Source of the DNA: Stagnihabitans lacustris
GTDB taxonomy: Bacteria > Pseudomonadota > Alphaproteobacteria > Rhodobacterales > Rhodobacteraceae
DNA length: 64,000 bases
Assembly (NCBI RefSeq): GCF_025950525.1
Contig: NZ_JAPDGS010000004.1
Location: 124,001 to 188,000, forward strand
Reading direction: 5' to 3'
The notes below the pieces were generated by a model. It was not told the DNA's origin. It made no database searches and saw only the letters and a list, made by a program, of their open reading frames with translations. Positions 6,351 through 61,434 of this stretch are shown piece after piece (the first letter of the stretch is position 1; the number at the start of each line of letters is the position of its first letter). A program made the position numbers and the translations under genes.

Positions 6351-6421
6351 ATATGTAAGCCAGTATGAAAGAGGGGCGGGGCCAGTCGGTTCGCGCCCCC
6401 CTTTCATACTGACACAAATAC
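6351..6421. repeat. Bipartite intergenic motif, inverted pair
   Basis: Plus copy 6351-6370 (ATATGT-N8-ATGAAA, one mismatch to consensus) and minus copy 6402-6421 (GTATTT-N8-ATGAAA on the minus strand). The ATGAAAG ends face each other, so CAGTATGAAAG pairs with CTTTCATACTG around a ~30-nt loop. Located between convergent genes (DUF4167 gene and rsmA). Member of the family described in the findings. Confidence 0.75.
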
Positions 6422-6582
6422 TCTCTGAGATTCGGCCAAGGCCCGGAAGCCGAAATAAAGGCCTTGGTCTTCGCGTCTTTCACAATGGCCCAAATATCCC
6501 CGCCAGAGGCTCCCGGAGACGAAGGGCGTCAGCCCGCAGTCGACACATAGGCTTGCGGCGCAGCCGCGCCTTTGGATCAGGG

Positions 6583-7425
6583 CTAGCCACGCGCGGCAAA
6601 GGCCCGGGCCAGCGCGCAGAACTGCTCCAGCGGGATTTCTTCGGCCCGCGAGGTCGGCTTGATCCCGACGCTTTCCAACAGCGCCTCGACATCGCCCAAG
6701 GGTTTCAGCGACGACCGCAGCATCTTGCGCCTTTGGCCAAAGGCCTGGGCCACGACGCGGTTCAAGACAGCGGCATCGGCGGGAAAACGCGGCTCGGGCA
6801 GGGCCTTCAGATGGACCACCGCGGAATGGACCTTGGGGGCCGGGGTAAAGGCCTCGGGCGGCAGATGCATCACGATCTTGGGGTCGGTCCGCCATTGGCA
6901 CAGGATCGCAAGACGCCCGTAATGGTCATCGCCGACCTTGGCCGTGATGCGCAAAGCGACTTCCTTTTGGAACATCAACGTCATCGAGGTCCAGAAGGGT
7001 GGCCAAACCGCCGGCGTCAGCCAGCGGGTCAGAAGCTCGGTGCCGACGTTATAGGGCAGATTGGCGGCAATGCGGATCGGCGGGGTCAGATGCTGCAACG
7101 GGTCCAGTTGCAGCGCGTCGCCTTCGATCACGGTCAGGCGGCCGGGGTAATGGGCGCCGACCTCCTCCAGTGCCGCGATGCAGCGGCGGTCTTTTTCCAC
7201 GGCCACCACGCGCCGCGCACCCTCCATCAGCAATCCGCGGGTCAGGCCACCGGGGCCGGGGCCGACCTCCAGGATATCGGAATTCGCCAAATCCCCGGCC
7301 AGACGCGCGATTTTCGACGTCAGGTTCAGGTCCAAAAGGAAGTTCTGCCCCAACTCTTTCTTGGCGGCAAGATCATGGGCGCGGATCACGTCGCGCAGCG
7401 AGGGCAGGCCATCAGGAGAGGTCAT
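6583..7425 (-). CDS. rsmA: 16S rRNA (A1518/A1519-N6)-dimethyltransferase
   Basis: Dimethylates two adjacent adenines in the 3' hairpin of 16S rRNA during late 30S assembly. 280 aa. The N-terminal [11 protein letters not shown] signature is at about 21-31, SAM motif [13 protein letters not shown] at about 51-62, and the catalytic NLPYN ([12 protein letters not shown]) at about 124-128. Loss of homologues gives kasugamycin resistance. The ATG lies one base after the TGA of the upstream ybaK-type gene, indicating translational coupling. Confidence 0.95.
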
Positions 7426-7426
7426 G

Positions 7427-7885
7427 TCACACCGTAAAGGGGGCGAGAGTCGCGCCGGTCAAAGTCAAAAGCACCGAAGGCGCCACGCAGAAGATATGGT
7501 TGGGCGTGCCCGCCGCGGCCCAAACCTGGTCGAAGTCCATCAGCCGCGGGTCCATCCAAAGGGGCGAGGCCGTCAGATGGCCCACAGGTGACACCCCGCC
7601 GATGGCAAAGCCCGTCACCGCCCGCACCGTCGCCGCATCGGCCCGGGTCAGGGCCTGTCCCGCAAGTGCCGAGGCGCGCGATGGGTCAACCTGGTTGCCG
7701 CCTGCGGTCAGAAACAGGCACAAGGACCGCTCGCCCTGAAACAGGATCGACTTCACGATCTGATCGACCGCGCAGCCCGCCATGGCTGCCGCCTCAGGGG
7801 CCGTGCGGGTCGAGGCCGGCGTTTGCAGGATCGTGACATCGACCCCTTTCAGGGCCTCGGTCACACGGGTCAGGCTTTTGGACAT
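7427..7885 (-). CDS. YbaK/EbsC-family aminoacyl-tRNA deacylase
   Basis: 152 aa with the YbaK/prolyl-tRNA editing fold. It edits mischarged tRNA in trans (Cys-tRNA-Pro or similar); the exact substrate cannot be told from sequence. Visible features are the [11 protein letters not shown] strand-helix with the conserved Lys, TAGGNQVD, and the GGVSPVGH loop typical of the family. The start at 7885 is chosen because AAGGAG precedes it by 7 nt and the family begins near MSKSLTRV; an upstream in-frame start would add 16 low-complexity residues. Operon with rsmA, one base apart. Confidence 0.88.
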
Positions 7886-8023
7886 CAAGGGCTCCTTGGC
7901 TTCGCTTCTGGCACCGCTTGACCCGCCCCGCAAGTGCCCGGGGCCTTTTCAACGCGCGCAGGCCGTGATAGAGGCCCGGGGCAATTCGGCGCCAATCGCG
8001 GCGCCCCATATCCGGAGTTTCCC

Positions 8024-8446
8024 ATGGCGATCGAACGCACCCTGTCCATCATCAAGCCTGATGCCACCAAGCGCAACCTGACCGGCAAGATCGTTGCCAA
8101 GTTCGAGGATGCCGGCCTGCGCGTTGTCGCCTCCAAGCGCATCCACCTGTCGGCCGCCGTCGCTGGCGAGTTCTACGGCGAGCATAAAGAGCGCGGCTTT
8201 TTTGGCGAGCTGGTGGCCTATATGGCTTCGGAGCCGGTCGTGGTTCAGGTTCTGGAAGGCGAGAATGCCATTGCCAAGAACCGCGAAGTGATGGGCGCGA
8301 CCGATCCGGCCGCCGCCGCCGAAGGCACGATCCGCAAGGACTTCGCTTTGTCCAAGGGCGAAAACTCGGTCCATGGGTCGGACAGCCCGGCCGCTGCCGC
8401 GCGCGAGATCTCTTTCTTCTTCTCGGGCCTTGAACTGGTCGGCTGA
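8024..8446 (+). CDS. ndk: Nucleoside diphosphate kinase
   Basis: Transfers the gamma-phosphate from ATP to NDPs through a phosphohistidine. 140 aa, standard length, beginning [18 protein letters not shown]. The active-site His is residue 117 in ENSVHGSDS, the position known from E. coli. GGAG lies 9 nt before the ATG. An upstream in-frame extension is not conserved. Transcribed alone, with a strong hairpin terminator after the stop. Confidence 0.97.
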
Positions 8447-8464
8447 TCGGTTTCAACGTCTTGG

Positions 8465-8494
8465 AAAGGGCCGCGCCGCAGGGTGCGGCCCTTT
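8465..8494 (+). terminator. Rho-independent terminator of ndk
   Basis: Ten-bp stem AAAGGGCCGC / GCGGCCCTTT with a 10-nt loop, 19 bp after the ndk stop, followed by TGCTTTGG. Confidence 0.8.
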
Positions 8495-8502
8495 TGCTTT
8501 GG

Positions 8503-8583
8503 TTTGTGGCCCCGATCTCTTGAGGGCCAGATCGCTTGGGGGCCAGATCTCTTGGTGGCCAGCGTCGATTGGGGGCCAGCCCC
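8503..8583. repeat. Degenerate 16-bp tandem repeat, about five copies
   Basis: Successive units at 8503-8518, 8519-8534, 8535-8550, 8551-8567 and 8568-8583 follow the pattern CTTGGGGGCCAGATCT. The middle two differ at 2 of 16 positions and the outer ones are more diverged. The last unit forms the hairpin TTGGGGGC/GCCCCCAA that precedes the motif copy at 8596. Confidence 0.75.
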
Positions 8584-8595
8584 CAAACCCCCGGG

Positions 8596-8615
8596 ATATT
8601 TATGAAAAGATGAAA
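8596..8615 (+). repeat. Bipartite intergenic motif (ATATTT-N8-ATGAAA)
   Basis: ATATTT, ATGAAAAG, ATGAAA. It follows the hairpin at about 8569-8588 and an ACCCCC linker, in the gap between the convergent ndk and tfoX-like genes. Confidence 0.75.
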
Positions 8616-8784
8616 TGGGGGGCAGGTCCATCCGCGTCGGCGGGGCCTTCAGGCCAGTGCGGTGAGGGCGCGCGCCCTACAAAGCTGATCCCATATCGGT
8701 GAGAGACGTGAAAGCCTCGTGGCGGCCATGTCCCGCCGATTGCAGGCTTGGCATCCGGTAGGGCGACACAGGCGGTGGTTAAGC

Positions 8785-9138
8785 TTAGGCCGGGATCACG
8801 CCGATCTGGCGCAGGGCCTGATCCAGCGGGCGGGGCAGGGTGCCAGCCTTGGGGGGTGCCGCAAAGGCAGCCGTTTCGACCTCGGCCTTCAGCGCGTCGA
8901 AATCCGCGCGCAGTTGCGCTTTTTCGGCGCCCTTGCAATCGTTCCAGGGACGGCCTTGCAGCGCCATCACCAGCACGTAATAGCCGATGAAATGCGGCGG
9001 TTGGCCCGAGAGCAACAGCCGGCGATAGGCCTCATGCGCGCCCAGCGTGCGCAGCTCTTCGGCCGTGGTCAGGCCGGCCTTGGCAAAGCTTGCCTCGGAG
9101 GCCGGACCCAGGTTCTTGATTGTCGAAATCGCCGCCAT
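8785..9138 (-). CDS. TfoX C-terminal domain protein
   Basis: 117 aa from the ATG at 9138; an ATG three codons upstream is also possible. Matches the stand-alone C-terminal domain of TfoX/Sxy: a helix-hairpin-helix-like start (ISTIKNLGPASEASFAKAGL), then TAEELRTLGAHEAYRRLL and LVMALQGRPWNDC. The last segment is a typical end of this domain in alphaproteobacteria. The full-length TfoX regulator of competence has an additional N-terminal domain absent here. Cytoplasmic; role unknown. Convergent with ndk. Confidence 0.85.
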   Translation of the reverse strand: MAAISTIKNLGPASEASFAKAGLTTAEELRTLGAHEAYRRLLLSGQPPHFIGYYVLVMALQGRPWNDCKGAEKAQLRADFDALKAEVETAAFAAPPKAGTLPRPLDQALRQIGVIPA

Positions 9139-9236
9139 GCATCGCATCCCAAGCCTTTCGGCCAGTCTAGCCGCTGGCGCAGGGCACGGGAAGCCGGTTC
9201 GGCCTCAAAGCCGGGCCGCGTTTTGGACGGGCTGTG

Positions 9237-9353
9237 TTACAGCGCGGCCCAATCGCGGAAGATCGGTTTCGGCGCCTGGCCACCGGTCTGTTGCGGGGTG
9301 GTGGGTTGCTGGCCCTGCTGCTGTTGCGGGGCGGTATCTTTGGCCAAGGACAT
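9237..9353 (-). CDS. Small 38-aa protein with PIFRDWAAL C-terminus
   Basis: Begins MSLAKDTAPQQQQ, has a Gln/Pro/Thr-rich middle, and ends APKPIFRDWAAL. A good ribosome-binding site (AGGAG, 6 nt before ATG) selects this start over longer in-frame ones. I recall short rhodobacterial proteins with a similar (P)xFRDWA end but no function. Mostly disordered and soluble. It lies upstream of, and divergent from, glgP. Confidence 0.55.
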   Translation of the reverse strand: MSLAKDTAPQQQQGQQPTTPQQTGGQAPKPIFRDWAAL

Positions 9354-9674
9354 CTCTGCTCCTGATGTTTGCGGCATTCTGCCTGTCATTTCCACCCGGT
9401 CAGATATCGCATCAGATTGCGGCAAAGACGTGGCGGATGGGCGCCTGATACGCGCCCTGATGGTCAAATGCAATCTGCCCCGGGTGCGCCACCTTCACCT
9501 TGTCGTGCACAAAACGCCCAAGCTTTGGGCGGATTTTGCAAAGCGCTTGTCAGATGAGGCGGCGACCGCCATTCTGGTCCTTGCGACAGGGGAAGGACGA
9601 GGGCCGAATCCAAAGCGTTTTGATTTCGTCACAATCGTGAAAAAACTGCTAGGAGTCGGGCTGAAAATGAGAAA

Positions 9675-9688
9675 TGTTTGCGCTAACA
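9675..9688. promoter_or_regulatory. LacI-type operator before the glycogen operon
   Basis: TGTTTGCGCTAACA is a 14-bp palindrome with one mismatch, about 78 bp before the glgP ATG. It has the same GCGCTAAC core as the perfect palindrome before zwf. Probably bound by a CceR-like LacI-family regulator. The surrounding 80 bp are AT-richer than the genes, as expected for a promoter. Confidence 0.6.
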
Positions 9689-9765
9689 GTGACGCGGTTT
9701 GAGGCGGGGAATCAGGCAGGGTGTCTGACCCTTGCCTTGACGGGACCAAGGCAGGGATTAGGCTC

Positions 9766-12207
9766 ATGGCAGCAAGAACAAAAACGGCGGACACCAGCGT
9801 GAACCAACAGATCCTCTCGACTCCCAGCTTGACGGCCAAAGACCTGCAAGCCGATGTGCTGCGCCACCTGACCTCGACGCTTGGCAAGGATCAGCCCAAT
9901 GCCTCGCTGTTCGATTGGCGCATGGCCCTGTCCTATGCGATCCGCGACCGGATCGTGGCGCCGTGGTTTGCCTCGACCCGCCGGGTTTACGGCGAGGACC
10001 GCAAGCGCGTCTATTACCTGTCGATGGAATTTCTGATCGGCCGCCTTTTGGAAGATGCGACCGTCAACCTTGGCCTGCGCGACACCGCGATCGAGGTCAT
10101 GGCGAACCTGGGTCAGGACTTCCGCGCCATCGTCGAGGACGAGCCCGATGCGGCGCTGGGGAATGGCGGGCTTGGCCGTCTGGCCGCCTGTTTCATGGAA
10201 AGCATGGCGACGGTCGGTTGCCCGGCCTATGGCTATGGCATCCGCTATGAACATGGCCTGTTCCGCCAGCGCTTTGTCGGCGGCCAACAGGCCGAGGTCC
10301 CCGAAGACTGGCTGACCCACCGCTACCCCTGGGAGTTCGAGCGTCCCGAAAGCGCCTATGTGATCGGCTTCAAGGGCCATGTCGAATTGCAGGACGGCCG
10401 CGAGGTCTGGGTTCCGGGCGAGACGGTTCAGGCGCAGGCCTATGACGCCCCGGTCGTGGGCTGGCAGGGCAAATGGGCCAATACGCTGCGGCTTTGGTCG
10501 GCCAAGCCCACGGCTCTGTTCGATCTGGAGCGGTTCAACCGCGGCGACTATGCGGCCGCGGCCGAGCCCGAGGCTTTGGCCCGCACGCTGTCGCGCGTGC
10601 TGTATCCCGATGACACGACCTATCAGGGCAAGGAACTGCGGCTGAAGCAAGAGTTCTTCATGACCTCGGCCGCGCTGCAAGACATCCTGCGGCGGTTCAC
10701 CGCCAATCATGCCGACCTGCGCCAGTTGCACAAGCATGTGGCGATCCAGATGAACGACACCCATCCGGCCATCGCGGGCCCGGAACTGGTGCGGCTTTTG
10801 GTCGACGACCACCGGCTGGACTTCACCGAGGCCGTGCATATCGCGCAAAAGTGCCTGGGCTATACCAACCATACGCTGCTGCCCGAGGCGCTGGAGCGGT
10901 GGGCGACCTTTACCTTCGGCACGACCCTGCCGCGCCACATGCAGATCGTCGAACGCATCGACGCCTGGCACAAGGACGAGAACCACGCCCGGCCGCATTA
11001 CGTCGGCATCGTCAAGCACCACGAGGTGCGGATGGGGGAGCTGGCCTTTGTCATGGCCCACAAGGTCAACGGGGTTTCGGCCTTGCACTCTGACCTGGTC
11101 AAGCGGTCCTTGTTCCCCGAGTTGAACGCGCTGCATCCTGACCGCATCATCAACATGACCAATGGCGTGACACCGCGCCGCTGGCTGAAGATGTGCAACC
11201 AGCCGCTTGCCGGTCTGATCACGCGCACGATTGGCGAGGGTTGGGAAGACAACCTTGACCGGCTGAAAGAGCTGGAGCCCGCGATTGAAACCCCGGAATT
11301 CCGCAAGGAATTCATGGCGGCCAAGCGGGAAAACAAGGTGGCCACGGCGGCCTGGATCAAGGCGCAATGCGGGATCACCGTCTCGCCCGATGCGCTGTTC
11401 GATGTGCAGATCAAGCGCATCCATGAGTATAAGCGCCAGCTGTTGAACATCCTGCAGACCATCGCGCATTGGAACCGGTTGAAGGCGAACCCCGGTGGCA
11501 ACCATGTGCCGCGGGTCAAGATCTTTGGCGGCAAATCCGCGCCGGGTTATGCGGTGGCCAAGGAAATCATCCATCTGATCAACGATGTGGCCAGCGTGAT
11601 CAATGCCGATCCGGTGACGGGCGACCTGCTGAAAATCGTCTATCCGGCGAATTACAACGTCTCGATGGCCGAACATCTGGTGCCTGCCGCCGACCTGTCC
11701 GAACAGATCTCGACCGCGGGCAAAGAGGCCTCGGGCACCGGCAACATGAAGTTCATGATGAACGGCGCGCCGACCATCGGCACGCTGGACGGGGCCAATG
11801 TGGAAATCCTGCAGGAAGTGGGGGCGGAGAACTTCTTCCTGTTCGGCATGACCACCGAAGAGGCCTGGAAGCGCCGTGAGGACCCCGACCATTCGCGCAA
11901 AGCCATCGACGCCAGCCCGGCGCTGCAACTGGTCTTGCAGCAGATCGCCGAGGGCAAATTCTCGGCCGGCCAAACCGACCGCTATCATGGGCTGGTGCAC
12001 CGCGTCTGGCACCACGATTACTTCCTCGTGGCGGCGGATTTCGACGCCTATGACCTTGCGCAACAAGAGGTTGACCGCGTCTTTGCCGATCCCGACCGTT
12101 GGGCGCGGATGGCGGCCTTGAACACGGCGCGGTCGGGCTTCTTTTCGTCGGATCGCACGATCCGGGCCTATATGAAAGACATCTGGGATATTCCTTCGGC
12201 GCTGTAA
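9766..12207 (+). CDS. glgP: Glycogen phosphorylase
   Basis: Phosphorolyses alpha-1,4 ends of glycogen to glucose 1-phosphate, with pyridoxal phosphate. 813 aa from the ATG; an in-frame GTG at 9721 would add 15 residues. The PLP lysine is residue 662 within ASGTGNMKFMMNGA, followed by TIGTLDGANVEI. The ALGNGGLGRLAACF and YGIRYEHGLF blocks are also present. First gene of a six-gene plus-strand operon; glgB starts 30 bp downstream. A LacI-type palindrome lies upstream. Confidence 0.97.
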   Translation: MAARTKTADTSVNQQILSTPSLTAKDLQADVLRHLTSTLGKDQPNASLFDWRMALSYAIRDRIVAPWFASTRRVYGEDRKRVYYLSMEFLIGRLLEDATVNLGLRDTAIEVMANLGQDFRAIVEDEPDAALGNGGLGRLAACFMESMATVGCPAYGYGIRYEHGLFRQRFVGGQQAEVPEDWLTHRYPWEFERPESAYVIGFKGHVELQDGREVWVPGETVQAQAYDAPVVGWQGKWANTLRLWSAKPTALFDLERFNRGDYAAAAEPEALARTLSRVLYPDDTTYQGKELRLKQEFFMTSAALQDILRRFTANHADLRQLHKHVAIQMNDTHPAIAGPELVRLLVDDHRLDFTEAVHIAQKCLGYTNHTLLPEALERWATFTFGTTLPRHMQIVERIDAWHKDENHARPHYVGIVKHHEVRMGELAFVMAHKVNGVSALHSDLVKRSLFPELNALHPDRIINMTNGVTPRRWLKMCNQPLAGLITRTIGEGWEDNLDRLKELEPAIETPEFRKEFMAAKRENKVATAAWIKAQCGITVSPDALFDVQIKRIHEYKRQLLNILQTIAHWNRLKANPGGNHVPRVKIFGGKSAPGYAVAKEIIHLINDVASVINADPVTGDLLKIVYPANYNVSMAEHLVPAADLSEQISTAGKEASGTGNMKFMMNGAPTIGTLDGANVEILQEVGAENFFLFGMTTEEAWKRREDPDHSRKAIDASPALQLVLQQIAEGKFSAGQTDRYHGLVHRVWHHDYFLVAADFDAYDLAQQEVDRVFADPDRWARMAALNTARSGFFSSDRTIRAYMKDIWDIPSAL

Positions 12208-15739: not shown

Positions 15740-15792
15740 CCGGGGGGGCTCGCCCCCCCGGACCCCCTGAGGATATTTATGAAAAGATGAAA
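15740..15792 (+). repeat. Hairpin plus bipartite motif between glgC and glgA
   Basis: A perfect 10-bp stem (CCGGGGGGGC / GCCCCCCCGG, 15740-15761) starts 9 bp after the glgC stop. It is followed by an ACCCCC linker and the motif ATATTT-ATGAAAAG-ATGAAA at 15773-15792, which ends 14 bp before the glgA start. Could act as an intra-operon terminator, an mRNA-stability element, or part of the glgA leader. Confidence 0.75.
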
Positions 15793-26223: not shown

Positions 26224-26334
26224 TCGCCCGAAGCTGATTGACAGCAGGCGGCGCTTCGGGGGTTCATCTCGGGGGGGGGCATCTCGCCTCTGCGTCTGCA
26301 GAGCAATCGACCCGGGGATTTGCCTCCGGCGGGA

Positions 26335-26387
26335 ATATTTGGGTCAGTATGAAAGCCGCATCCGTCCTTTCATACTGACAGAAATAC
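26335..26387. repeat. Bipartite intergenic motif, inverted pair
   Basis: Plus copy 26335-26354 (ATATTT-GGGTCAGT-ATGAAA) and minus copy 26368-26387 (GTATTT-CTGTCAGT-ATGAAA). The 11-bp arms CAGTATGAAAG / CTTTCATACTG are separated by 11 nt. The plus copy is preceded by GCCTCCGGCGGG, the same flank as the pair at 37577-37698. Between convergent pgi and ridA. Confidence 0.8.
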
Positions 26388-26436
26388 TCTCCGGGGGTGC
26401 GGGGGTGGAAAACCCCCGCTTGGCGTCCGAAATGCC

Positions 26437-26528: not shown

Positions 26529-26873
26529 TCAAAGCGCCGCGGTCACGATGATTTCGACCAGGTATTTCGGAGCGGCCAACTTGGCCTCGCCGGTGGCGCG
26601 GGCCGGGGTATGGCCTGCGGGAACCCAAGTGTCCCAGACCGCGTTCATTTCGGCAAAGGTGCCGATATCGGCCAGCCAGATCTGGGTCGACAGGATGCGG
26701 GTCTTGTCGGTCCCGGCCTCGGCCAGGATGCGGTCGACCTGGGCCAGGCAATCGCGGGTCTGCTCGGCGACATTGGCGCCCTCGCCGACCTGGCCCGCCA
26801 GCCACACCACGCCATTATAGGCCACGGCCTCGCTCATCCGCGCGCCAACGCCGATCCGCTTGATATCGCTCAT
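26529..26873 (-). CDS. RidA family protein
   Basis: 114 aa, YjgF/YER057c/UK114 fold. It resembles the RidA subfamily that deaminates reactive enamine/imine intermediates or acts as a trimeric ligand-binding protein. It contains VVWLAGQVGEG, QTRDCLAQVDRILAEAG, and a C-terminal KYLVEIIVTAAL. The canonical catalytic Arg position near the C-terminus is not obvious, as in divergent subgroups. Transcribed toward pgi. Confidence 0.88.
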   Translation of the reverse strand: MSDIKRIGVGARMSEAVAYNGVVWLAGQVGEGANVAEQTRDCLAQVDRILAEAGTDKTRILSTQIWLADIGTFAEMNAVWDTWVPAGHTPARATGEAKLAAPKYLVEIIVTAAL

Positions 26874-34720: not shown

Positions 34721-34778
34721 TTTCATCTTTTCATAAATATCCCACGGGTGGGTCCGGGAGGGTGTGAAACCCTCCCGG
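34721..34778 (-). repeat. Hairpin plus bipartite motif, minus strand
   Basis: Motif at 34721-34740 (ATATTT-ATGAAAAG-ATGAAA on the minus strand), preceded on that strand by the hairpin CCGGGAGGGT / ACCCTCCCGG (34754-34778). The 25-bp hairpin is identical to the one at 61377-61401. A partial copy of its arm recurs at about 34803-34817. Confidence 0.8.
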
Positions 34779-37576: not shown

Positions 37577-37698
37577 CTTTCATACTGACGAAAATACTCC
37601 CGCCGGAGGCCCCGGGCTCCCCCAGCGCCGCGGCCTGAAAAGACAGCACGTCGGTGGGGCAAGAGCCTCCGGCGGGAATATTTTGGTCAGTATGAAAG
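37577..37698. repeat. 34-bp inverted repeat carrying two bipartite motifs
   Basis: Left arm 37577-37610 and right arm 37665-37698 are 34-bp inverted repeats with two mismatches. Each has the motif (minus copy 37578-37597, plus copy 37678-37697) and the flank GCCTCCGGCGGG. Here the ATGAAAG ends face outward, opposite to the pairs at 6351 and 26335. 54 bp lie between the arms. Confidence 0.85.
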
Positions 37699-44061: not shown

Positions 44062-44178
44062 TTGCGGCCTGGCGGGAAAGCGCTGACGCGCCCTCCCGCT
44101 GCGCCCGCCCAAAGCGGGGGCTTCCGCCCCCGCACCCCCGACCAAAGGGGCGCACGCGCCCCCTTGGAACCCCCGTGA

Positions 44179-44253
44179 ATATTTGGATCAGTATGAAAGG
44201 GGCGTCGGGCAAGGAGTCTGACGTCTCTTTCGTTTTCACATTTGCACAAATAC
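44179..44253. repeat. Two bipartite motifs, inverted, between phoB and penicillin acylase
   Basis: Plus copy 44179-44198 (ATATTT-GGATCAGT-ATGAAA), preceded by GC-rich hairpins and an ACCCCCGTG linker. Minus copy 44234-44253 (GTATTT-GTGCAAAT-GTGAAA) diverges most from consensus but keeps the 8-nt spacing. Convergent gap. Confidence 0.75.
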
Positions 44254-44340: not shown

Positions 44341-46809
44341 TCAGGGCGCAGGGACCAGAGTCGTGACCCCCACGGCCCCCGCCCGGGCCAGTTGCGGGTC
44401 CAGCGTCATCGGCACATATTCGCCCCGCCGCCACAGCTCTGACAGGTCATCGTAAAACCGCGACAGCGGATGGCCCGACTGGCCCGTGGCAATGACAAAG
44501 ACCGAGCTTTCGGGGTCAGCGAAGTCATAGACCCCGCGATAGCCGCCGCCGTGGACATTCTCGTAGGGGTTCTCGCCTGTGCCGACCGTGCGCCCGCGCA
44601 TCAGGGTGAAGTCGCCACCGCTGGTACTTTGGCGGATGTTCACGAAATACTGCAGCACCGGCACGTCCCCCAGGACCGCGTGATCATGCGCCGCCTCATG
44701 GGCATCGCCCCAGCGCCAGGATTCGATCTTGGGGCCATAGGTTTCGGACAGGCCCAAAAGCGCGTCGTCCAGCGCCAGTTGCGCGATCTCGGCGCAGCTT
44801 TCCACCGCGGCCGATTGCACCACATCGCACCAGACCGAGGCGCCATCGGTGTTGCGATAGACCCGCTCGATGAACTCGGGCGCGGGGCGGGTGAATTGAT
44901 CGGCCAGCGGCCCCACCTCGTCGCGCATCAGGCGGCCCTGGATCGCCCGCAGCCAGGCTTCGGCGATCAGCGGCTCTGGCAGGTGTTCGTTTTCCTCGCC
45001 GTTCCAGGCCGCCAGCAGCTTCAGCGCGTCCTGGCGCTGGCGTTCGGGCGTGCCAAGGGGGCTGGGCTCTCCGGTGAACCACAGGTCCTTGCCGATCAGC
45101 GGCAGCAGCGTGCGCAAGGTGGGCGAGACCGTGTCCAACTGCGCCTCCATGAAGGAGGACCGCGTATGGACCTCGCGGGTTTTCATCAGCGTCAGCCAGC
45201 GCTGGATGCGCTGCGTGTCGCCCCAGGTAAAGCTGACGTGATGGGGAAAGGGCGCGTCCACGATCTTGTTGTTCGTATTGCCGATCAGGCCCGCGGCGGG
45301 GTTTTTCACCACCGGGTTGTCGGCATAGGGGTAAAAGCCGGTCCAGCGGTTTTGCCCCTCCCAGCCCGGGGCAGGCATCCGGCCTTGCGTGACATGGCTG
45401 GGATCGCGGGCCGGCATCTTGCCCACCAGCTGCATCGCGATGTTGGCTTGGTCGATCACCATCATATTCTGCGAGGGCGCCACAAAGCCCTCCATCGCCG
45501 TGATCGCCGCATCAACAGACCCCGCCCGCATCAGGCGCAGCGCCGCGGTCATCGAGGTATCATTGGCGTCCAACGCCGTCCATTCCAGCGCCGCGACCGA
45601 TCCCGGCGGCGTCACCGTATCCAGGTCGTAATGCGTGCCGGGCAGGATCGGGCCGCTTTCGCTCCACCTTTGGGTGATGGTGACGGGCTCGGCATCCTTG
45701 ACTTGGATGATCGTGCGGCTGGTGATGAAATCGCGCGGGCCCTGCGGCGTCAGATATTGTTCGGAATTGTCGGGGTTCACCCGTTCCATCACGACATCCT
45801 GGTCGTCAAGGTAAGACGAGGTCAGGCCCCAGCCCAGCTTTTCGCTGCGGCCCAGCAGGACCAGGGGCATCCCCGGGATGGTCGCCCCGATCACATCGCC
45901 GGACTGCAACTGCAACCGCGCCAGGAACCAGATCGAGGGCGCGGTAAAGCCCAGATGCGGGTCATTGGCCAAAAGCGAGCCCCCCGCGGCCGAGCGCGCC
46001 GGTGCGGCCGCCCAGGCATTCGAGGCCCCGGCCATGTCCGCGCTGGCAAAGGGCGACAGGGGCAGGTTCAGCGCGGCCTGGCGCTGCGGCACGCTCCTGT
46101 TGTAAGGGCCGGGCATCAGGGCGGAATACTGGGGCAGGGCGGCGATGCCCGGCCCGCTGACGTCGGGCAGGATGTCGCGCAACCGGTTGGGCGAAATCGT
46201 CAGGCTCAGTTCCGCCCGCAGGACCTCGTTGTCCAGATGGCCCGACAGCTGCAGCGCCATCAGCTTGATGATCGCCAGCGAATCGGCCGGGGCCCAGGCG
46301 TCGATCTGGCTGGGGAACAAGAAGAACTCTGGCGCGCCGCGGCCCAGGGCATTGGCATTGACCTGACCGATCCAGGCGTTCACCCCATCGGCATAGGCCT
46401 GCAGCGCAGCCTTGGCATAGTCGTCCTGCGCCGCCACCGAGGACAGCGACAGGGCGTAAAGATCCAGGCGGCGCAACAGCTCGTCCGTCTTCAGCGTGGT
46501 TTCGCCAAAGAGTTCGGACAAGCGTCCCTGCGCCGTGCGCCGCATCAGCATCATTTGCCACAGCCGGTCCTGGGCATGGGCGAAACCCAAGGCATAATAG
46601 GCGTCGGTGTCCTTGGTGGCAAAGATATGGGGAATGGCGCGGGCGTCGCGCACGATCTCGACCGGGGCCGCGATGCCCGGCACCTCCCAGGTGGCGGCAT
46701 AGTCGGGCAGGGACCGCGACAGGAAGTAATAGATCCCCAGAAGCACCAGGATCGCCAGCACCACCAGGGCCACAAAGCCGCGCAGCGTCCAACGGAAAGC
46801 GGTAAGCAT
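44341..46809 (-). CDS. Penicillin acylase family protein
   Basis: 822 aa. N-terminal membrane anchor (FVALVVLAILVLLGIYYFL at about 12-30), so membrane-bound with the enzyme outside. Ntn-hydrolase: the likely autocatalytic cleavage and nucleophile is Ser263 in GASNAWAAAP. VEIVRDARAIPHIFA and GFAHAQDRLWQM belong to the alpha-chain start; NDPHLGFTAPSIW and the N-G-TN-type loop (GLIGNTNNKIVDA) are in the beta chain. Substrates may be N-acyl compounds such as acyl-homoserine lactones or beta-lactams; this cannot be told here. Also contains a GDVI segment typical of the AHL-acylase relatives. Confidence 0.93.
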   Translation of the reverse strand: MLTAFRWTLRGFVALVVLAILVLLGIYYFLSRSLPDYAATWEVPGIAAPVEIVRDARAIPHIFATKDTDAYYALGFAHAQDRLWQMMLMRRTAQGRLSELFGETTLKTDELLRRLDLYALSLSSVAAQDDYAKAALQAYADGVNAWIGQVNANALGRGAPEFFLFPSQIDAWAPADSLAIIKLMALQLSGHLDNEVLRAELSLTISPNRLRDILPDVSGPGIAALPQYSALMPGPYNRSVPQRQAALNLPLSPFASADMAGASNAWAAAPARSAAGGSLLANDPHLGFTAPSIWFLARLQLQSGDVIGATIPGMPLVLLGRSEKLGWGLTSSYLDDQDVVMERVNPDNSEQYLTPQGPRDFITSRTIIQVKDAEPVTITQRWSESGPILPGTHYDLDTVTPPGSVAALEWTALDANDTSMTAALRLMRAGSVDAAITAMEGFVAPSQNMMVIDQANIAMQLVGKMPARDPSHVTQGRMPAPGWEGQNRWTGFYPYADNPVVKNPAAGLIGNTNNKIVDAPFPHHVSFTWGDTQRIQRWLTLMKTREVHTRSSFMEAQLDTVSPTLRTLLPLIGKDLWFTGEPSPLGTPERQRQDALKLLAAWNGEENEHLPEPLIAEAWLRAIQGRLMRDEVGPLADQFTRPAPEFIERVYRNTDGASVWCDVVQSAAVESCAEIAQLALDDALLGLSETYGPKIESWRWGDAHEAAHDHAVLGDVPVLQYFVNIRQSTSGGDFTLMRGRTVGTGENPYENVHGGGYRGVYDFADPESSVFVIATGQSGHPLSRFYDDLSELWRRGEYVPMTLDPQLARAGAVGVTTLVPAP

Positions 46810-53532: not shown

Positions 53533-53577
53533 TTTCATACTGATCCAAATATTCCGGGGTCTGGGGCAGAGCCCCAG
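53533..53577 (-). repeat. Hairpin plus bipartite motif after typA
   Basis: On the minus strand, 11 bp after the typA stop, a hairpin CTGGGGC/GCCCCAG (53561-53577) is followed by an ACCCCGG linker and the motif ATATTT-GGATCAGT-ATGAAA (53533-53552). Confidence 0.8.
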
Positions 53578-53588
53578 CCTGAAGCCCC

Positions 53589-56227: not shown

Positions 56228-56308
56228 TGGATTACCTCTTTAAGAACACAAAACAAGGTTAACTTACACCAAATCGTGATTCGTTGATAGCGGTAAGCCA
56301 GATACGAC

Positions 56309-56331
56309 AAGGACCGGCAGTGCCGGTCCTT
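56309..56331 (-). terminator. Terminator of icd
   Basis: AAGGACCGG / CCGGTCCTT, 9-bp stem with 5-nt loop, followed on the minus strand by TGTCGT; 25 bp after the icd stop. Confidence 0.75.
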
Positions 56332-56355
56332 GCGGTAATTCCGTGGTGGTCGGCC

Positions 56356-57570
56356 TTAGCCCACCAGCGCCTTGTTCAGGTATTCGTCGACCTTCTCCAG
56401 ATAGCCGATCGTGGTCAGCCACTTTTGATCCGGGCCGACCAGCAGCGCCAGATCCTTGGTCATCCAGCCATCCTCGACGGCCTGCACGGTGACTTTCTCC
56501 AGCGTGGAGGCAAAGCGCAGCAGTTGCGCATTGTCGTCCAGTTTCGCGCGGTGCTTGAGGCCCCCGGTCCAGGCGAAGATCGAGGCCACGGAGTTCGTGG
56601 AGGTCTGCTGGCCCTTCTGGTGCTGGCGGAAGTGACGGGTGACGGTGCCATGCGCCGCCTCGGCCTCGACGATCTTGCCATCGGGCGTCATCAGGACCGA
56701 GGTCATCAGGCCCAAAGAGCCAAAGCCCTGCGCCACGGTATCGGACTGCACATCGCCGTCATAGTTCTTGCAAGCCCAGACATAGCCGCCCGACCATTTC
56801 ATCGCGCTGGCGACCATATCGTCGATCAGGCGGTGTTCGTAATGGATGCCAGCGGCCTTGAACTTGTCTTCGAATTCCTCGGCATAGACTTGGGCGAACA
56901 GGTCCTTGAAGCGGCCGTCATAGGCCTTGAGGATCGTGTTCTTGGTCGAGAGATAAACCGGCCAGCCCTTCATCAACCCGTAATTCAGCGAGGACCGCGC
57001 GAATTCGATGATCGACTGGTCCAGGTTATACATCCCCATGACCACACCGGCGCCGGGGGCGTTGAACATCTCGCGCTCAATGACCTCCCCGTCTTCGCCG
57101 ACGAATTTCAGCGTCAGTTTCCCTTTGCCGGGAAAGCGGAAGTCGGTGGCGCGGTATTGGTCGCCGAACGCGTGGCGGCCCACGACGATGGGCTTGGTCC
57201 AACCCGGCACCAGGCGCGGCACGTTGGAACAGATGATCGGCTCGCGGAAGATCACGCCGCCCAGGATGTTGCGGATTGTGCCGTTGGGCGACTTCCACAT
57301 CTGTTTCAGGTTGAATTCCTGGACCCGCTGTTCGTCCGGGGTGATCGTGGCGCATTTCACGCCGACGCCGAATTCCTTGATCGCATTGGCCGCGTCGATG
57401 GTGATCTGATCCGAGGTCGCATCGCGCACCTCGATGCCCAGGTCATAGTATTTCAGGTCGATGTCCAGATAGGGCAGGATCAGCTTTTGCTTGATGAAGT
57501 CCCAGATGATCCGGGTCATCTCGTCGCCGTCGAGTTCTACGACCGGATTGGCCACCTTGATCTTGGTCAT
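56356..57570 (-). CDS. icd: Isocitrate dehydrogenase (NADP+)
   Basis: Oxidative decarboxylation of isocitrate to 2-oxoglutarate. 404 aa, the eukaryotic-type homodimeric subfamily (about 405 aa), not the E. coli type. [20 protein letters not shown] at the N-terminus, [13 protein letters not shown] (substrate Ser/Asn), and the [19 protein letters not shown] metal site. [15 protein letters not shown] binds NADP. An 11-bp inverted repeat lies 60 bp upstream. Confidence 0.96.
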
Positions 57571-57628
57571 GAAAGCACCTGTATGGGGATTCGTTCCGCG
57601 TAGGTCTAGCCGAAACCGCGGTCAAAAG

Positions 57629-57658
57629 AAAGTCGGTATGCTACGGTATACCGACTTT
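57629..57658. repeat. Inverted repeat between icd and the sulfotransferase-like gene
   Basis: AAAGTCGGTAT (57629-57639) and ATACCGACTTT (57648-57658) are a perfect 11-bp inverted repeat with an 8-nt centre, in a divergent promoter region. It may be an operator or a leader hairpin of icd. Confidence 0.75.
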
Positions 57659-57742
57659 CCGGCGCTTTCCCGGCCTGTGTTGGGAATTTGGTAACCAATC
57701 TTTGGCAAGACAGGGAAAAGGGGCCAGAAGGGCGGATGAAAG

Positions 57743-58750
57743 ATGCATGGCGCAAGACCCAGGAAACTGATCCTGCATATCGGGGCGCACAAAACCGGGA
57801 CGACGGCGATACAGGAATATCTGTTCGCCAAGGCCGATTTTTTGGAAGAGATCGGCTGGTTTCTGGCCAATATCCCCGGCAAACCTCTGAACTGGGGCAA
57901 CATGTTCCGCGTCCTGCGCGGGCCGCGCGGCAAGGGCGAGACGATCTTTCCGGTCAATCCGGCGGTCTTTGCCGGGCTTTTGTCGGTCATCGACCAAACG
58001 CGGCTGGATGTGATCCTGTCAGCCGAGGATCTGTTCTTTCTGAACGAGGAGGGGATTGCCGATTTCGCCCCCGCCCTGACGCAGCGCTTCGACGAGATCA
58101 CGGTGGTCGCCTATCTGCGCCGTCAGGACAAGATGGCCCTGTCGCAATGGATGCAGGGCGGGCGGACGGTGCAATCGGCCATGGTCTTTGGCGGCACGGC
58201 GGCGCCTTTCGACTGCATGGGGGCCGAGGCGATGGGCTATTTGGACTATGCCTCCAAGGTCGAGGCCTGGGCCGCGGCCTTGCCCGGCGCGCGCCTTGTG
58301 CTGCGCCGCTATGACCGCGCGCTGTTCCCGAACGGCAACGTGATGGAGGACTTCCTTCAGGCGACCGGCCTGATCCTGCCGCCCGAAAGCCGGATCATTG
58401 ACGCCAATCGCTCTTTGGGGGCCACGACGGTGCGGCTGGTCTATCTGCTGCGCCAGGCGGGCCTTTTTCAGCGCCCGATCGAGGCGGCCTTTGCCAAGGG
58501 GTTGATCCCCGACAGCAAGGACAAGGTCATGCCGTCATGCGACCAGGCCCGGGCCTTTCTGGACCGCTTTGCCGATTGCAACGCACGGCTGGCGCGGATG
58601 ATGGGGCTGGAGCAGGTCTTTGACGACGACCTGTCGACCTATCCCGAAGAGGAAATCTTTCCGCCCCTGGACCCCAGCCTGGTGCAAAGCACACTCTTGC
58701 AACTTTACGTCGAGGCGGTGCGGATCAATGATCCCCAAGAGGTGAAATAG
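57743..58750 (+). CDS. Sulfotransferase-like P-loop protein
   Basis: 335 aa. Near the N-terminus, LILHIGAHKTGTTAIQEYLF matches the 5'-phosphosulfate-binding loop of PAPS-dependent sulfotransferases. VVAYLRRQDKMALSQWMQ occupies the place of the 3'-phosphate-binding motif (Arg in place of the usual Ser/Arg pair). The rest is alpha/beta. It would sulfate a glycan or lipid, but no surface-polysaccharide gene is nearby. Alone between icd and a structureless gap. An alternative is a non-sulfating P-loop relative. Confidence 0.75.
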   Translation: MHGARPRKLILHIGAHKTGTTAIQEYLFAKADFLEEIGWFLANIPGKPLNWGNMFRVLRGPRGKGETIFPVNPAVFAGLLSVIDQTRLDVILSAEDLFFLNEEGIADFAPALTQRFDEITVVAYLRRQDKMALSQWMQGGRTVQSAMVFGGTAAPFDCMGAEAMGYLDYASKVEAWAAALPGARLVLRRYDRALFPNGNVMEDFLQATGLILPPESRIIDANRSLGATTVRLVYLLRQAGLFQRPIEAAFAKGLIPDSKDKVMPSCDQARAFLDRFADCNARLARMMGLEQVFDDDLSTYPEEEIFPPLDPSLVQSTLLQLYVEAVRINDPQEVK

Positions 58751-59249
58751 GCCGGGATGGCGCGGGCAAAGCTGTAAGGCAAGCTTCTGCGAGCCCCTTG
58801 ACCCCATGCGGCTGGCCTGCGCTTTGCCGATGACAGGGGCAGGCGACAGATGGGTTGGGGCGATCTTGCAAGGCAGCAGGCGGTTTGAAGGTCCACAGCA
58901 GGGCTAGGCGCTTGGGCTGGCCCGGGCCGCGAAGGGTCTTGATGCGCGAAGGGGCTCCTGCGATGCGCCCTGTACTGGCCGCGAGAACCAGACGGCGCGA
59001 TCCCGAAGCGGTGCAGGAGGAATTTGGGCGGGTTAGGGGCGGGGCCAAAACGCGCAAGGCCTGGCGGACACTTTGGGGCCACGGCCCGGGCGCGCCAGGC
59101 TTCCGACCTTGCTGTCGGCCTGACCCTCGCCGGCTATAGGCGTGCCGATCCTCTGGGAACGGCAAAGCCTTGGGACGGGCAAAGCCTTGGGGCAGGGCGG
59201 GTCTGTCGAAGGATGCGGGGCCACCGTTTTGCGGACCCTGCCGCCGCTT
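58751..59249. other. 499-bp gap without a recognisable gene
   Basis: No frame here has family resemblance, a good ribosome-binding site, or codon use like the neighbours. Only a short direct repeat GGCAAAGCCTTGGG (59161-59174 and 59178-59191) stands out. It is the one large convergent gap without the bipartite motif. It could be a decayed gene. Confidence 0.5.
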
Positions 59250-59834
59250 TCAGGAGGTGAAATAGCCCCGGGTCTTGGCGCGGACCCAATCCCACAGCCG
59301 GGGCGCGCCGCGCGCGATCTTGGTGCCGACCCGCGCGTCCAGTTGCTCGGAGGTGACCTGGTATTCCACCCAAGTGCCGCCGCCCGACATCAGGTTGGCC
59401 ATGACCGGCTGCACCCGGTCCAGCGATTTGGCAAACACCGCATCCGGGGTCTCGGCCGCCTCGAACTCGTCCCACAACGCGCGGAAGGCCAGGCGCAGAT
59501 CCGGCGGCAGCAGGCCAAAGATCCGGTCCGCCGCCCGCGCCTCGGCCTCTTGCGTGTCGGTCGACCCATGCGCGGTGCCGCCCTGGGAATGGATCGGCAC
59601 ATCGCCCACGTCGATCTCCACCAGGTCATGCAGCAACAGCATGCGGATCACGCGGTCGATATTGACCCCTTCGGCGGCCTGATCGGCCAGGGTCATCGCA
59701 TAAAGCGCCAGGTGCCAGGAATGTTCGCCCGAATTCTCCCGGCGCGAGCCATCGACAAGCGTCGTGGCCCGCAGCACGGATTTCAACCGGTCGGCCTCGT
59801 TCAGGAAGTCGAACTGAGCCTCGATCCGGTCCAT
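59250..59834 (-). CDS. HD-domain phosphohydrolase (5'-deoxynucleotidase-like)
   Basis: 194 aa. The HD pattern is visible as ENSGEHSWHLAL (first His), MLLLHDLVEIDVGDV (His-Asp pair) and a later Asp near DRVQPV. This is the YfbR/HDDC2 group, which removes phosphate from deoxyribonucleoside 5'-monophosphates. Start at 59834 overlaps the stop of the preceding 76-aa gene (TGATG). Third gene of a minus-strand operon. Confidence 0.87.
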   Translation of the reverse strand: MDRIEAQFDFLNEADRLKSVLRATTLVDGSRRENSGEHSWHLALYAMTLADQAAEGVNIDRVIRMLLLHDLVEIDVGDVPIHSQGGTAHGSTDTQEAEARAADRIFGLLPPDLRLAFRALWDEFEAAETPDAVFAKSLDRVQPVMANLMSGGGTWVEYQVTSEQLDARVGTKIARGAPRLWDWVRAKTRGYFTS

Positions 59835-60064
59835 CAGCGGACCTCGTCGGCCTTGCCCGCGGCCAAGGCGGCCTCCAGCCATTTGCGCGCGCGCCGTTCG
59901 GCCATGCGGACCCGGTAGCCGGTGGTAAAGGCCTCCAAAAGCGTGGGCGAGGCGTCGCCCACGATCTTGGCCAGCTTGTCGAACAACCGATCATCCCCCA
60001 GCTTTTCGGAGGCCGCGATCACGTCACGGGCCAGCGCGTCGCCAAGTTCGTCGATCACCGCCAT
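59834..60064 (-). CDS. Unknown 76-aa helical protein
   Basis: MAVIDELGDALARDVIAASE, then KLAKIVGDASPTLLEAFTTGYRVRMAERRA-type helices and a charged end (KADEVR). Predicted all-helical and soluble. Start overlaps the stop of the hydrolase gene (TAATG) and its stop overlaps the HD gene, so the three are translationally coupled. No family recognised. Confidence 0.75.
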   Translation of the reverse strand: MAVIDELGDALARDVIAASEKLGDDRLFDKLAKIVGDASPTLLEAFTTGYRVRMAERRARKWLEAALAAGKADEVR

Positions 60065-60723
60065 TAGCGCGTCACCTCGGTCAGGCGGCGGCGCACATAG
60101 GTGGAAACCGTGTCGATCATCGGCTTCATATGGGCTTCGTCGTCCTTGAAGAAGTGGTCGGCGCCCTCGATCACGTCATGGGTGATCGTGATGCCTTTTT
60201 GCTCGTGCAGCTTGTTCACCAGCGCGACCGTATCCTTGGGCGGGGCAACCTTGTCCGCCGAGCCGTTGATGATCAGACCCGAGGCCGGGCAGGGCGCAAG
60301 GAAACTGAAGTCGTAAAGGTTCGCCGGCGGCGCCACCGAGATGAAGCCGGTGATCTCGGGCCGGCGCATCAGCAGCTGCATCCCGATCCAGGCGCCAAAG
60401 GAGAAACCCGCGACCCAGCAATGCTTGGCGTTCTGGTTCATCGACTGCAGGTAATCCAGCGCGCTGGCCGCGTCGCTGAGTTCCCCGATCCCCATGTCAT
60501 ATTCGCCCTGCGACCGGCCCACGCCGCGGAAGTTGAACCGCAGAACCGAGAAGCCCAGGTTGTAAAAGGCATAATGCAGGTTGTAGACAACCTTGTTGTT
60601 CATCGTCCCGCCGTAGTTCGGATGGGGATGCAGCACGATGGCAATCGGCGCGTCCTTTTCCTTTTGCGGGTGATAGCGGCCTTCGAGACGGCCCTCGGGG
60701 CCGGCGAAAATAACCTCGGGCAT
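60064..60723 (-). CDS. Alpha/beta hydrolase
   Basis: 219 aa. Oxyanion segment LHPHPNYGGTMNN, nucleophile elbow GFSFGAWIG (Ser), Asp in NGSADKVAPP and His in EGADHFF. Resembles the dienelactone-hydrolase-like or YitV-type small hydrolases with HPHP. Substrate unknown. First gene of the operon and divergent from iscR. Confidence 0.9.
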   Translation of the reverse strand: MPEVIFAGPEGRLEGRYHPQKEKDAPIAIVLHPHPNYGGTMNNKVVYNLHYAFYNLGFSVLRFNFRGVGRSQGEYDMGIGELSDAASALDYLQSMNQNAKHCWVAGFSFGAWIGMQLLMRRPEITGFISVAPPANLYDFSFLAPCPASGLIINGSADKVAPPKDTVALVNKLHEQKGITITHDVIEGADHFFKDDEAHMKPMIDTVSTYVRRRLTEVTR

Positions 60724-60768
60724 GTGACCTCGCCTGATGACCTATTCTTGACGAATTCGGTCGGATAA

Positions 60769-60785
60769 TTTAGAACCATTCCAAA
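60769..60785. promoter_or_regulatory. Candidate IscR (Iron-Rhodo-like) box
   Basis: TTTAGAA-CCA-TTCCAAA is an imperfect 17-bp inverted repeat, 97 bp before the iscR ATG and close to a TTGACG -35-like hexamer at 60748. It fits the TTAGAA...TTCTAA style I recall for the rhodobacterial iron box; assignment is tentative. Confidence 0.5.
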
Positions 60786-60881
60786 GAGGAAAACTCTTCG
60801 TGGCTTCGGGTTTCAGGTAAGGGACCCGGGGCTTTGCGTCAATGGCCCGTTGCCGCGAATCGACCAGGAGATGGAAGCAAG

Positions 60882-61355
60882 ATGAAACTCTCGACCAAGG
60901 GACGATATGCGATGGTGGCTTTGGCCGATCTGGCGCTGGCCGAAGCGAAAGCCAAAGGTGCCGAAGAGCTGATGAGCCTGGCCGAGATCGCCAAGCGGCA
61001 GGATATCTCGCTGCCCTATTTGGAGCAGCTGTTCGTCAAGCTGCGCCGGGCCGGGTTGGTCGAGGCGGTGCGGGGCCCGGGCGGCGGCTATCGTCTGGCG
61101 CGGGCACCGGTGGAAATCCGGGTGTCAGAGGTGCTGGAGGCGGTCGAAGAGACGGTGGATGCGATGCACACCGGGGCGGGGGCGTCGGGGGCGGTGTCAG
61201 GAACGCGGGCGCAGTCGCTGACCAACCGGCTGTGGGAGGGGCTGTCGGCCCATGTCTATGTGTTCCTGCATCAGACGCGGCTGTCGGATGTGATCCGCAA
61301 TGAGATGCGGCCTTGTCCTGCGGTGCCGCAGTTGTTCGCGGTCGTGGACGAATAG
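60882..61355 (+). CDS. iscR: Rrf2-family Fe-S regulator IscR (single-cysteine type)
   Basis: 157 aa. Winged helix with MKLSTKGRYAMVALADLAL, QDISLPYLEQLFVKL and VRGPGGGYRLAR. The region holding Cys92, Cys98 and Cys104 in E. coli IscR reads DAMHTGAGASGAVSG here, with no cysteine. The only Cys is residue 145 (MRPCPAVPQ). Rhodobacter sphaeroides IscR is also known to lack the three cysteines. First gene of the suf operon. AGGAG is 9-13 nt before the ATG. Confidence 0.94.
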   Translation: MKLSTKGRYAMVALADLALAEAKAKGAEELMSLAEIAKRQDISLPYLEQLFVKLRRAGLVEAVRGPGGGYRLARAPVEIRVSEVLEAVEETVDAMHTGAGASGAVSGTRAQSLTNRLWEGLSAHVYVFLHQTRLSDVIRNEMRPCPAVPQLFAVVDE

Positions 61356-61376
61356 CGTCAGACTTGCGGGACACGC

Positions 61377-61434
61377 CCGGGAGGGTTTCACACCCTCCCG
61401 GACCCTCCCGTGGAATATTTGAGCCAGTATGAAA
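61377..61434 (+). repeat. Hairpin plus bipartite motif between iscR and the desulfurase gene
   Basis: Hairpin CCGGGAGGGT / ACCCTCCCGG (61377-61401), 21 bp after the iscR stop, is followed by an ACCCTCCCGTGG linker and the motif ATATTT-GAGCCAGT-ATGAAA (61415-61434). It ends 7 bp before the next start codon, so it forms the leader of that gene. Confidence 0.8.

Follow-up and report, generated by a model that had tools for sequence, protein, structure and literature searches.

A hairpin and third-run element with a bipartite 3' motif at gene ends in Rhodobacteraceae: a candidate transcription terminator

Intrastrand triplex motifs have been described in Escherichia coli, where the PIT, BoxC and TM_ECO repeats were recognized as such and divided into classes (Holder et al., 2015; PMC4666352). 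In the portions of that article drawn on here, BoxC belongs to class II and has 9-nt stems, the ITxF search was set to stems of 6–15 triads, and PIT and BoxC show no correlation with the orientation or function of neighbouring genes, a role in genome instability being proposed. In methanogenic archaea, the consulted parts of another study describe an intergenic G-rich repeat followed by a C-rich track, which forms a hairpin with an antiparallel G-rich third strand in solution, a triplex that competes with a G-quadruplex in potassium (PMC8044849). The present analysis concerns a repeated element found in a 64,000-nucleotide stretch of DNA (hereafter the window) and throughout the genome to which it belongs (G000), which was placed in this analysis within the family Rhodobacteraceae; the closest named counterpart of its MraZ, 82% identical, comes from Stagnihabitans tardus. 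The element consists of a GC hairpin, a C-rich third run and a 3' motif, RTATTT-N8-RTGAAA, and is a candidate transcription terminator. Like PIT and BoxC, as far as these are covered by the consulted text, it is dispersed and GC-rich, and its hairpin arms and third run are written in the code of an intrastrand triplex.

Literature linking triplex motifs to terminators or to Rhodobacterales was not found in a search that covered subscription journals sparsely. The term "Rhodobacter" is absent from the main text of PMC4666352, and in the consulted parts of PMC4060949 and PMC2267715 Rhodobacter is unmentioned and no link between triplexes and terminators is made. No such motif is named in the consulted parts of three articles on Rhodobacter sphaeroides (PMC5089854, PMC7866481, PMC8625941), and the matches listed for six motif strings searched in the literature look irrelevant.

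The motif, the hairpin and the third run

A total of 14 copies of RTATTT-N8-RTGAAA were detected in the window, including 13 exact copies and one, at 6351, with a single mismatch (ATATGT in place of RTATTT), while shuffles of the window gave a mean of 0.19 and a maximum of two. The whole genome (4.05 Mb) contains 257 exact copies and none of the reversed pattern, so that the enrichment over controls, a test set beforehand, was found at both scales. An earlier note, made from the letters of the window, had listed thirteen copies; all of these were recovered, 12 of them exact, and an exact minus-strand copy at 6478–6497 had escaped it. Its claim that the spacer is always 8 nt was borne out by a scan of spacers from 4 to 13 nt in 464 kb of G000 (the window plus 400 kb more), in which 55 of the 57 matches fell at N8, none at 4–7 or 9–12, and two at 13. 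The two spacer classes that it distinguished are real and, sorted by core word, become three types: YCAGTATGAAA (29 occurrences, 28 after RTATTT), YCAATGTGAAA (8, all after RTATTT) and AAAAGATGAAA (14, all after RTATTT), the spellings in G000 being YCAGTATGAAAG, YCAATGTGAAAG or AAAAGATGAAA. The core is never free-standing, as 50 of the 51 core words in the 464 kb follow RTATTT at the correct spacing and the remaining one, at 6351, follows ATATGT.

Genes were called with a custom script trained on the long reading frames of G000 itself, in place of a standard caller, and the less GC-rich genomes G012, G147, G049 and G142 were left out of further work. Since 89% of the 464 kb is coding, uniform placement would put about 49 of the 55 exact copies inside genes. 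Only two lie inside intact coding genes, xdhA and xdhB, and the copies are thus not evenly scattered inside coding DNA. The statement that the motif always stands between genes accordingly holds for all 14 copies in the window and fails in the genome for these two.

A longer element extends upstream of the motif, which forms its 3' end. The earlier note, which took the motif for a constrained protein-binding or RNA-structural element and not a product of drift, was right in outline, but its 20-mer is merely the 3' part of the unit, and the gene-end placement, the hairpin and third run, and the versions carried by relatives all went unseen. In the sense direction, the usual order begins with a GC hairpin, whose 5' arm is G-rich, and continues through a short linker, the C-rich third run, a few G or A bases, RTATTT, three variable bases and the core. 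An alignment of 73 copies is C-rich from −9 to −5 and G or A from −3 to −1, followed by RTATTT, two loosely conserved bases, a G in 90% (the third of the three variable bases), the core, and a G in 71%. The earlier note knew of no named family, and the Rfam search of the window agrees, with a tRNA as the sole match at gathering score and no family matching the element.

The third run copies the purine arm of the hairpin in parallel order, GGAGGGG standing with CCTCCCC, GGGGAGG with CCCCTCC, and GGAGAGGG with CCTCTCCC. After de-duplication, 188 copies from eight genomes were available; a stem of at least six pairs was parsed 8–25 nt upstream in 140 of them, 115 had a purine run of at least five in the arm, and 66 of these arms were mirror-asymmetric. 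Among the 66, the best match was parallel in 27, antiparallel in none, and tied or neither in 39. A partner-swap permutation over 92 distinct combinations, drawn from the 115 copies with 8–16 nt between hairpin and RTATTT, gave z scores of 10.7 for the parallel and 4.6 for the antiparallel order. In the base tallies from the same copies, whose offset was fitted on G only, arm G stood opposite C in 411 of 443 cases, and arm A stood opposite A in 46, T in 31, G in 8 and C in 2; A and T together make up 77 of 87, vs. 46 of 92 with the arm read the other way. When the arm consists of G only and TATTT follows, the third run has the length of the arm in 35 of 39 copies. Such arms are mostly 4–5 bases long (34/39), and the mixed arms matched in parallel are 6–8 bases long in a scan of arms of at least six.

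Two patterns differing in third-run order alone were written and scanned in 394 genomes of the family. The parallel pattern matched 215 times in 24 genomes (205 times in 23 once G000 is set aside). The antiparallel pattern matched three times in two genomes, and two of these three matches are parallel elements seen from the opposite strand. In the 30 loci fetched by the parallel pattern, representing 24 genera, TATTT starts within 6 nt after the third run in 27 (23 by script at up to 5 nt, four by eye at 6 nt). Among the 23 loci with TATTT at up to 5 nt, GAAR, GATG or GAGG occurs within the next 20 bases in 22, although this is a loose test. The order of the third run is that of an intrastrand triplex, which as read on the sense strand would be of pyrimidine type and as read on its complement of purine type. 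A purine-type fold (G.G-C, A.A-T, T.A-T) in the complementary strand, which is the template DNA strand, appears to fit better than a pyrimidine type in RNA, because of the freedom of A or T opposite arm A and the all-G arms; this preference is weakened by the many arm-A positions that lie at the arm base beside the A-rich linker. Switching of the third run into Watson–Crick pairing with the 5' arm was rejected, as the order is wrong for it (0 antiparallel vs. 27 parallel among the 66 arms, and 3 vs. 215 in the pattern scan).

Several observations weigh against the triplex part of this interpretation. Where arm A is flanked by G, the third-run base is T in 23 cases, G in 8, A in 6 and C in 1, and the code is not clean. 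The parallel matches draw on a small set of sequences, chiefly GGAGGGG and GGAGGG, and one genome (G830) supplies 113 of the 215. Reversed-pattern controls in the 394 genomes matched 20 and 58 times; read on the other strand, these controls correspond to the class II triplex order and a direct-repeat form, and that geometry therefore shows no triplex preference. A scan in which nested arms were incompletely collapsed gave, beside 124 parallel matches, 32 antiparallel ones, a good part of which are sub-windows within mirror-symmetric arms. When arms were taken at their maximal length, in DNA that had not been fetched by the patterns, the counts were 23 parallel, one antiparallel and 326 neither. 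In viral contigs, the GGGGAGG version occurred in nine parallel and four antiparallel stretches.

Two side observations came from these scans. Nine phage contigs (L260–L268; GC content 0.44–0.57) hold a hairpin with a parallel third run, GGGGAGG..CCTCCCC NNN CCCCTCC. By eye, a run of five T follows 10–16 bases later in eight of the nine (all but L268), and four of the eight seem to belong to a single related group; this arrangement is possibly a triplex terminator unrelated to the bacterial element. In addition, the reversed controls matched 19, 11 and 11 times in G759, G553 and G545, which suggests a different GC hairpin repeat in these genomes.

Placement at gene ends and variation among relatives

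With a relaxed motif, 60 copies were found in the 464 kb of G000 and 64 in 400 kb of a close relative, G636. In G000, 24 lie between convergent genes, 17 in sense and eight in antisense between co-directional genes, seven between divergent genes, three inside genes and one at an edge; the corresponding numbers in G636 are 38, 15, 10 and one, with none inside genes. Over both genomes (864 kb), 62 copies occur in the 23.4 kb of convergent regions and eight in the 25.3 kb of divergent ones, an eight-fold difference (p = 2e-12). Lone copies between co-directional genes are oriented in sense in 23 cases and in antisense in seven (p = 0.005). Of 34 pairs of adjacent copies, 25 face each other (+−) and two point apart (−+). 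This placement is what a terminator would produce, and in part it is also what would be expected of a repeat kept out of promoters. The copies in the window are listed in Table 1, together with those in the two xdh genes.

Table 1. Positions, strands and gene context of the copies in the window and of the xdh elements.
Positions	Strand	Feature	Context
6351..6370	+	degenerate core (ATATGT for RTATTT); no matching third run	after + gene ending at 6268
6402..6421	-	core; no matching third run	faces 6351 (-> <-); downstream of minus gene 6583-7425 (RsmA/KsgA family)
6478..6497	-	core; GCCTCTGGCGGGG precedes	same gene end as 6402 copy
8569..8615	+	full element: hairpin 8569-8586 (G5/C5), C5 within 8587-8595, core 8596-8615 (AAAAGATG type)	after nucleoside-diphosphate kinase gene
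15740..15792	+	full element: hairpin 15740-15761 (G7/C7), CCCCCT within 15762-15772, core 15773-15792	between glgC and starch-synthase-domain gene
26322..26354	+	GCCTCCGGCGGGA + core 26335-26354	after glucose-6-phosphate isomerase gene; faces 26368
26368..26419	-	full element: core 26368-26387, C5 within 26388-26398, hairpin 26399-26419	after minus gene 26529-26873 (Ribonuc_L-PSP domain)
34721..34778	-	full element: core 34721-34740, CCCACCC within 34741-34753, hairpin 34754-34778 (arm GGGAGGG)	same strand has no called gene immediately upstream
37578..37610	-	core 37578-37597 preceded by GCCTCCGGCGGGA	directed back towards end of + histidine-kinase gene
37665..37697	+	GCCTCCGGCGGGA + core 37678-37697	after + histidine-kinase gene (PhoR-like, below model cut-off)
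44142..44198	+	full element: imperfect hairpin 44142-44167, AA + C5 within 44168-44178, core 44179-44198	after phoB
44234..44253	-	core; no matching third run	faces 44179; downstream of minus gene 44341-46809
53533..53577	-	full element: core 53533-53552, C4 within 53553-53560, hairpin 53561-53577 (arm G4)	after typA/bipA
61377..61434	+	full element: hairpin 61377-61401 (arm GGGAGGG), CCCTCCC within 61402-61414, core 61415-61434	after Rrf2-family gene
L044:10890-14629; L092-L107	xdhA antisense, xdhB sense	elements in interdomain linkers	old in genus

Two sites in the table deserve separate mention. An unannotated small RNA or gene may end at the minus-strand element at 34721–34778, and the copies at 37578–37697 form a back-to-back (<- ->) pair after the PhoR-like gene, one of the rare outward pairs counted above.

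Sampling of the order yielded 244 genomes, every one belonging to the element's own family, and 188 of them had at least one exact match to the motif. The richest were G020 (108), G023 (91), G035 (89) and G073 (84), and most family genomes had few matches, near the control. In a sample of 289 genomes from the class, members outside the family had at most 16 exact matches, many of them at control level. Some small genomes among these members nevertheless surpass the reversed control several-fold for the exact motif (G271 14:2, G467 10:0, G368 8:0), with varied words among the matches listed; this excess perhaps stems from base composition or start codons. A stricter pattern, GGRRTATTTNNNNNANNNTGAAR, was found in 53 of 120 family genomes (control, one in all). 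In genomes from other families it occurred 0–2 times each (18 of the 241 class genomes had it, G000 among them). Among the matches listed, genera have their own core words, such as CCAGAATGAAA, CCACAATGAAA, GAACAATGAAA, GAATAATGAAR and CGAAGATGAAR, and the three bases after TATTT vary. Few copies were seen in other genera, with up to 60 kb inspected in each, and one element-like match was found among nine MraZ loci. A search of named species with the DNA of one element gave no plasmid or phage match; part of another element matches two Paracoccus plasmids, and 50 kb of one of these holds one element-like copy.

G636 shares a mean of 88% amino acid identity with G000 over 170 orthologs. Across 80 syntenic intergenic regions of the two, 59 have no copy, 13 have one in both, four in G000 only and four in G636 only. 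At several shared sites the element is kept while the flanks diverge, and stems change on both sides. The core types also switch at orthologous sites, TCAGTATG standing against CAAGTATG and CCAGTATG against AAAAGATG, which fits a spreading repeat as well. G582, which was placed in the same genus (mean 69% identity over 64 orthologs), lacks the G000 form at the eight gene ends compared, one pair of which is doubtful at 32% identity; some have other hairpins and some a related-looking tail. Several G582 gene ends carry another hairpin, GATTTTTCTGCGAAAAATC, in some cases facing AATTTTCGCAGAAAATT, and one intergenic stretch of this genome holds many tandem copies of a 'gattcaatctggcct'-like unit.

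Function and competing explanations

On sequence grounds, the element is a gene-end element of Rhodobacteraceae and is probably, though by no means certainly, a transcription terminator, which is the best single account of the location, the pairing, the linkage of the parts and their conservation. RNA polymerase would pause and release at RTATTT. The hairpin and third run may fold into a triplex in the template DNA strand behind the polymerase, following the purine code given above; folding in the nascent RNA is a less likely alternative. The core, about 10–15 bases ahead of the release point, may slow the polymerase, either by making downstream contacts itself or by way of a bound protein, and facing pairs would stop both convergent genes. 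A more specific proposal is made tentatively and is rather doubtful: the element may represent a new class of bacterial terminator in which a triple helix behind the polymerase, as a template-strand purine triplex or an RNA triplex, is combined with a downstream word read by a fast-evolving factor, hence the genus dialects.

A number of findings speak against termination. RTATTT is a poor U-tract, with four T in six, a G as the next base in 67% of the 73 copies and no run of 6–8 T. Parsed strong hairpins mostly have their base 8–16 nt before RTATTT (115 of the 188 copies), and the sequences fold only slightly better than shuffled ones (mean z = −1.4). Not all copies have the full upstream part: a second type has GCCTCCGGCGGGA or a variant alone (window copies 6478, 26335, 37578 and 37678), and the copies at 6351, 6402 and 44234 have neither hairpin and third run nor GCCTCCGGCGGGA, and hence no clear upstream module. 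When all co-directional copies are pooled, 32 are sense and 18 antisense (p = 0.065), and lone copies of convergent regions lie closer to their own gene in 12 cases and not in nine. No mutual exclusion between the element and canonical terminators was found in G000 and G636, where the canonical ones are rare (Fisher p = 0.6–1), and in G582 the element stood at one of the 60 gene ends examined for such exclusion. Moreover, the E. coli PIT elements have no terminator activity according to the consulted text (PMC4666352).

The copies inside genes are a further objection. In G000, full elements lie between protein domains in xdhB (sense) and xdhA (antisense), with both genes intact. The xdhB insertion is in frame and is found in G000, in a further relative, G631, and, degenerate, in G636; nine of 16 genus members read straight through the site and four have a different, longer stretch. 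In xdhA, seven of 15 other genus loci, matched by protein pattern, hold an antisense element that comprises a hairpin, a run, RTATTT (or a sequence differing from it by one base) and a core of their own, and these elements shape the protein linker (FIxxQISSG-like). Some copies are thus old and placed where terminating the host gene cannot be their job, at least with ribosomes following.

The chief rival is a spreading repeat of the REP, RPE or MITE kind, tolerated best at gene ends, with core and hairpin recognized by the spreading machinery and termination incidental; we regard it as unlikely, and a terminator and a spreading repeat can both be true. The insertions in xdhB and the antisense elements in xdhA linkers agree with it, as do the switches of core type at orthologous sites and the inverted pairs, which resemble BIMEs. 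Approximately 90 bp around 44106–44202 of the window match at least 34 other dispersed places in G636 and at least 13 in G631. On the other hand, no clean empty site or target duplication was seen among the alignments listed for 21 copy-bearing regions, and variable bases stand between fixed ones across many copies and genera, pointing to selection at each site and not to recent copying. The REP/RAYT version was rejected, since the Y1_Tnp family (PF01797) had no match in the genome itself (94% complete), while five of 14 control genomes were positive.

The copies may also be ordinary intrinsic terminators with a short U-tract, in which the third run and core have no separate role, an explanation we think improbable. 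It would account for the upstream GC hairpin, the T-rich RTATTT and the gene-end location, and 51 of 73 G000 copies have, in their predicted folds, the final paired base no more than 2 nt from RTATTT. However, a fixed downstream core with dialects and a parallel third run are foreign to the classical model, and the terminator of the same genome at the UpsM position upstream of mraZ has, by eye, a hairpin and T-rich tail and no such core.

It is still more improbable that the element is simply a binding site for a nucleoid or insulator protein at gene ends, with dialects that track changes in the protein. The strict bipartite spacing (55/57 at N8), the variable three bases and the genus-specific core words suit such a site, but plain binding would leave the covariation of hairpin and third run unexplained, and no candidate protein was found, although no search aimed at one was made. 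The DNA uptake sequences (DUS) of Neisseriaceae have lineage dialects, and the dialects, inverted pairs and 257 copies recall them, yet a DUS-like role was rejected as very improbable, as the core is not enriched on its own, nearly always follows RTATTT (50/51), and few copies lie in coding DNA.

If the terminator reading is true, triplex-coded repeats, described since the 1990s–2000 without an agreed function, would gain a place in the genome and a function open to experiment, and the textbook terminator of hairpin plus U-tract would have two further parts, a third run and a downstream word. Operon and 3'-end prediction might improve in a large family that includes laboratory models. The genus-specific core words pose the question of which factor reads them.

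Comparison with known systems

In the class scheme used for PIT and BoxC, as given in the consulted text, the sense strand of the Rhodobacteraceae element would be assigned to class III and its complementary strand to class I; unlike those repeats, as described there, it has shorter runs (4–8), is placed at gene ends and has TATTT next in 27 of the 30 fetched loci (PMC4666352). The methanogen repeat has the order of the complementary strand of the element, i.e., the class I order, but it is archaeal, no downstream core is described in the consulted parts, and the word "terminator" is absent from the text (PMC8044849).

The element resembles intrinsic terminators in its GC hairpin, T-rich tail, location at 3' gene ends and convergent pairs, and departs from them in its weak U-tract, the C-rich third run between hairpin and tail, and the conserved sequence downstream of the tail. 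REP and BIME repeats and the Rickettsia palindromic elements (RPE) occur as hundreds of structured copies, with inverted pairs and a few in-frame copies in genes. The element is likewise present in hundreds of structured copies with inverted pairs and few in genes; unlike these repeats, it has no Y1 transposase found in its own genome, and its lone gene-end copies are biased in orientation. Mammalian Pol I terminators combine a T-rich release element with a downstream TTF-I site, and the Rhodobacteraceae element, which is bacterial and has no known bound factor, similarly pairs a T-rich putative release point with a downstream element at a fixed distance.

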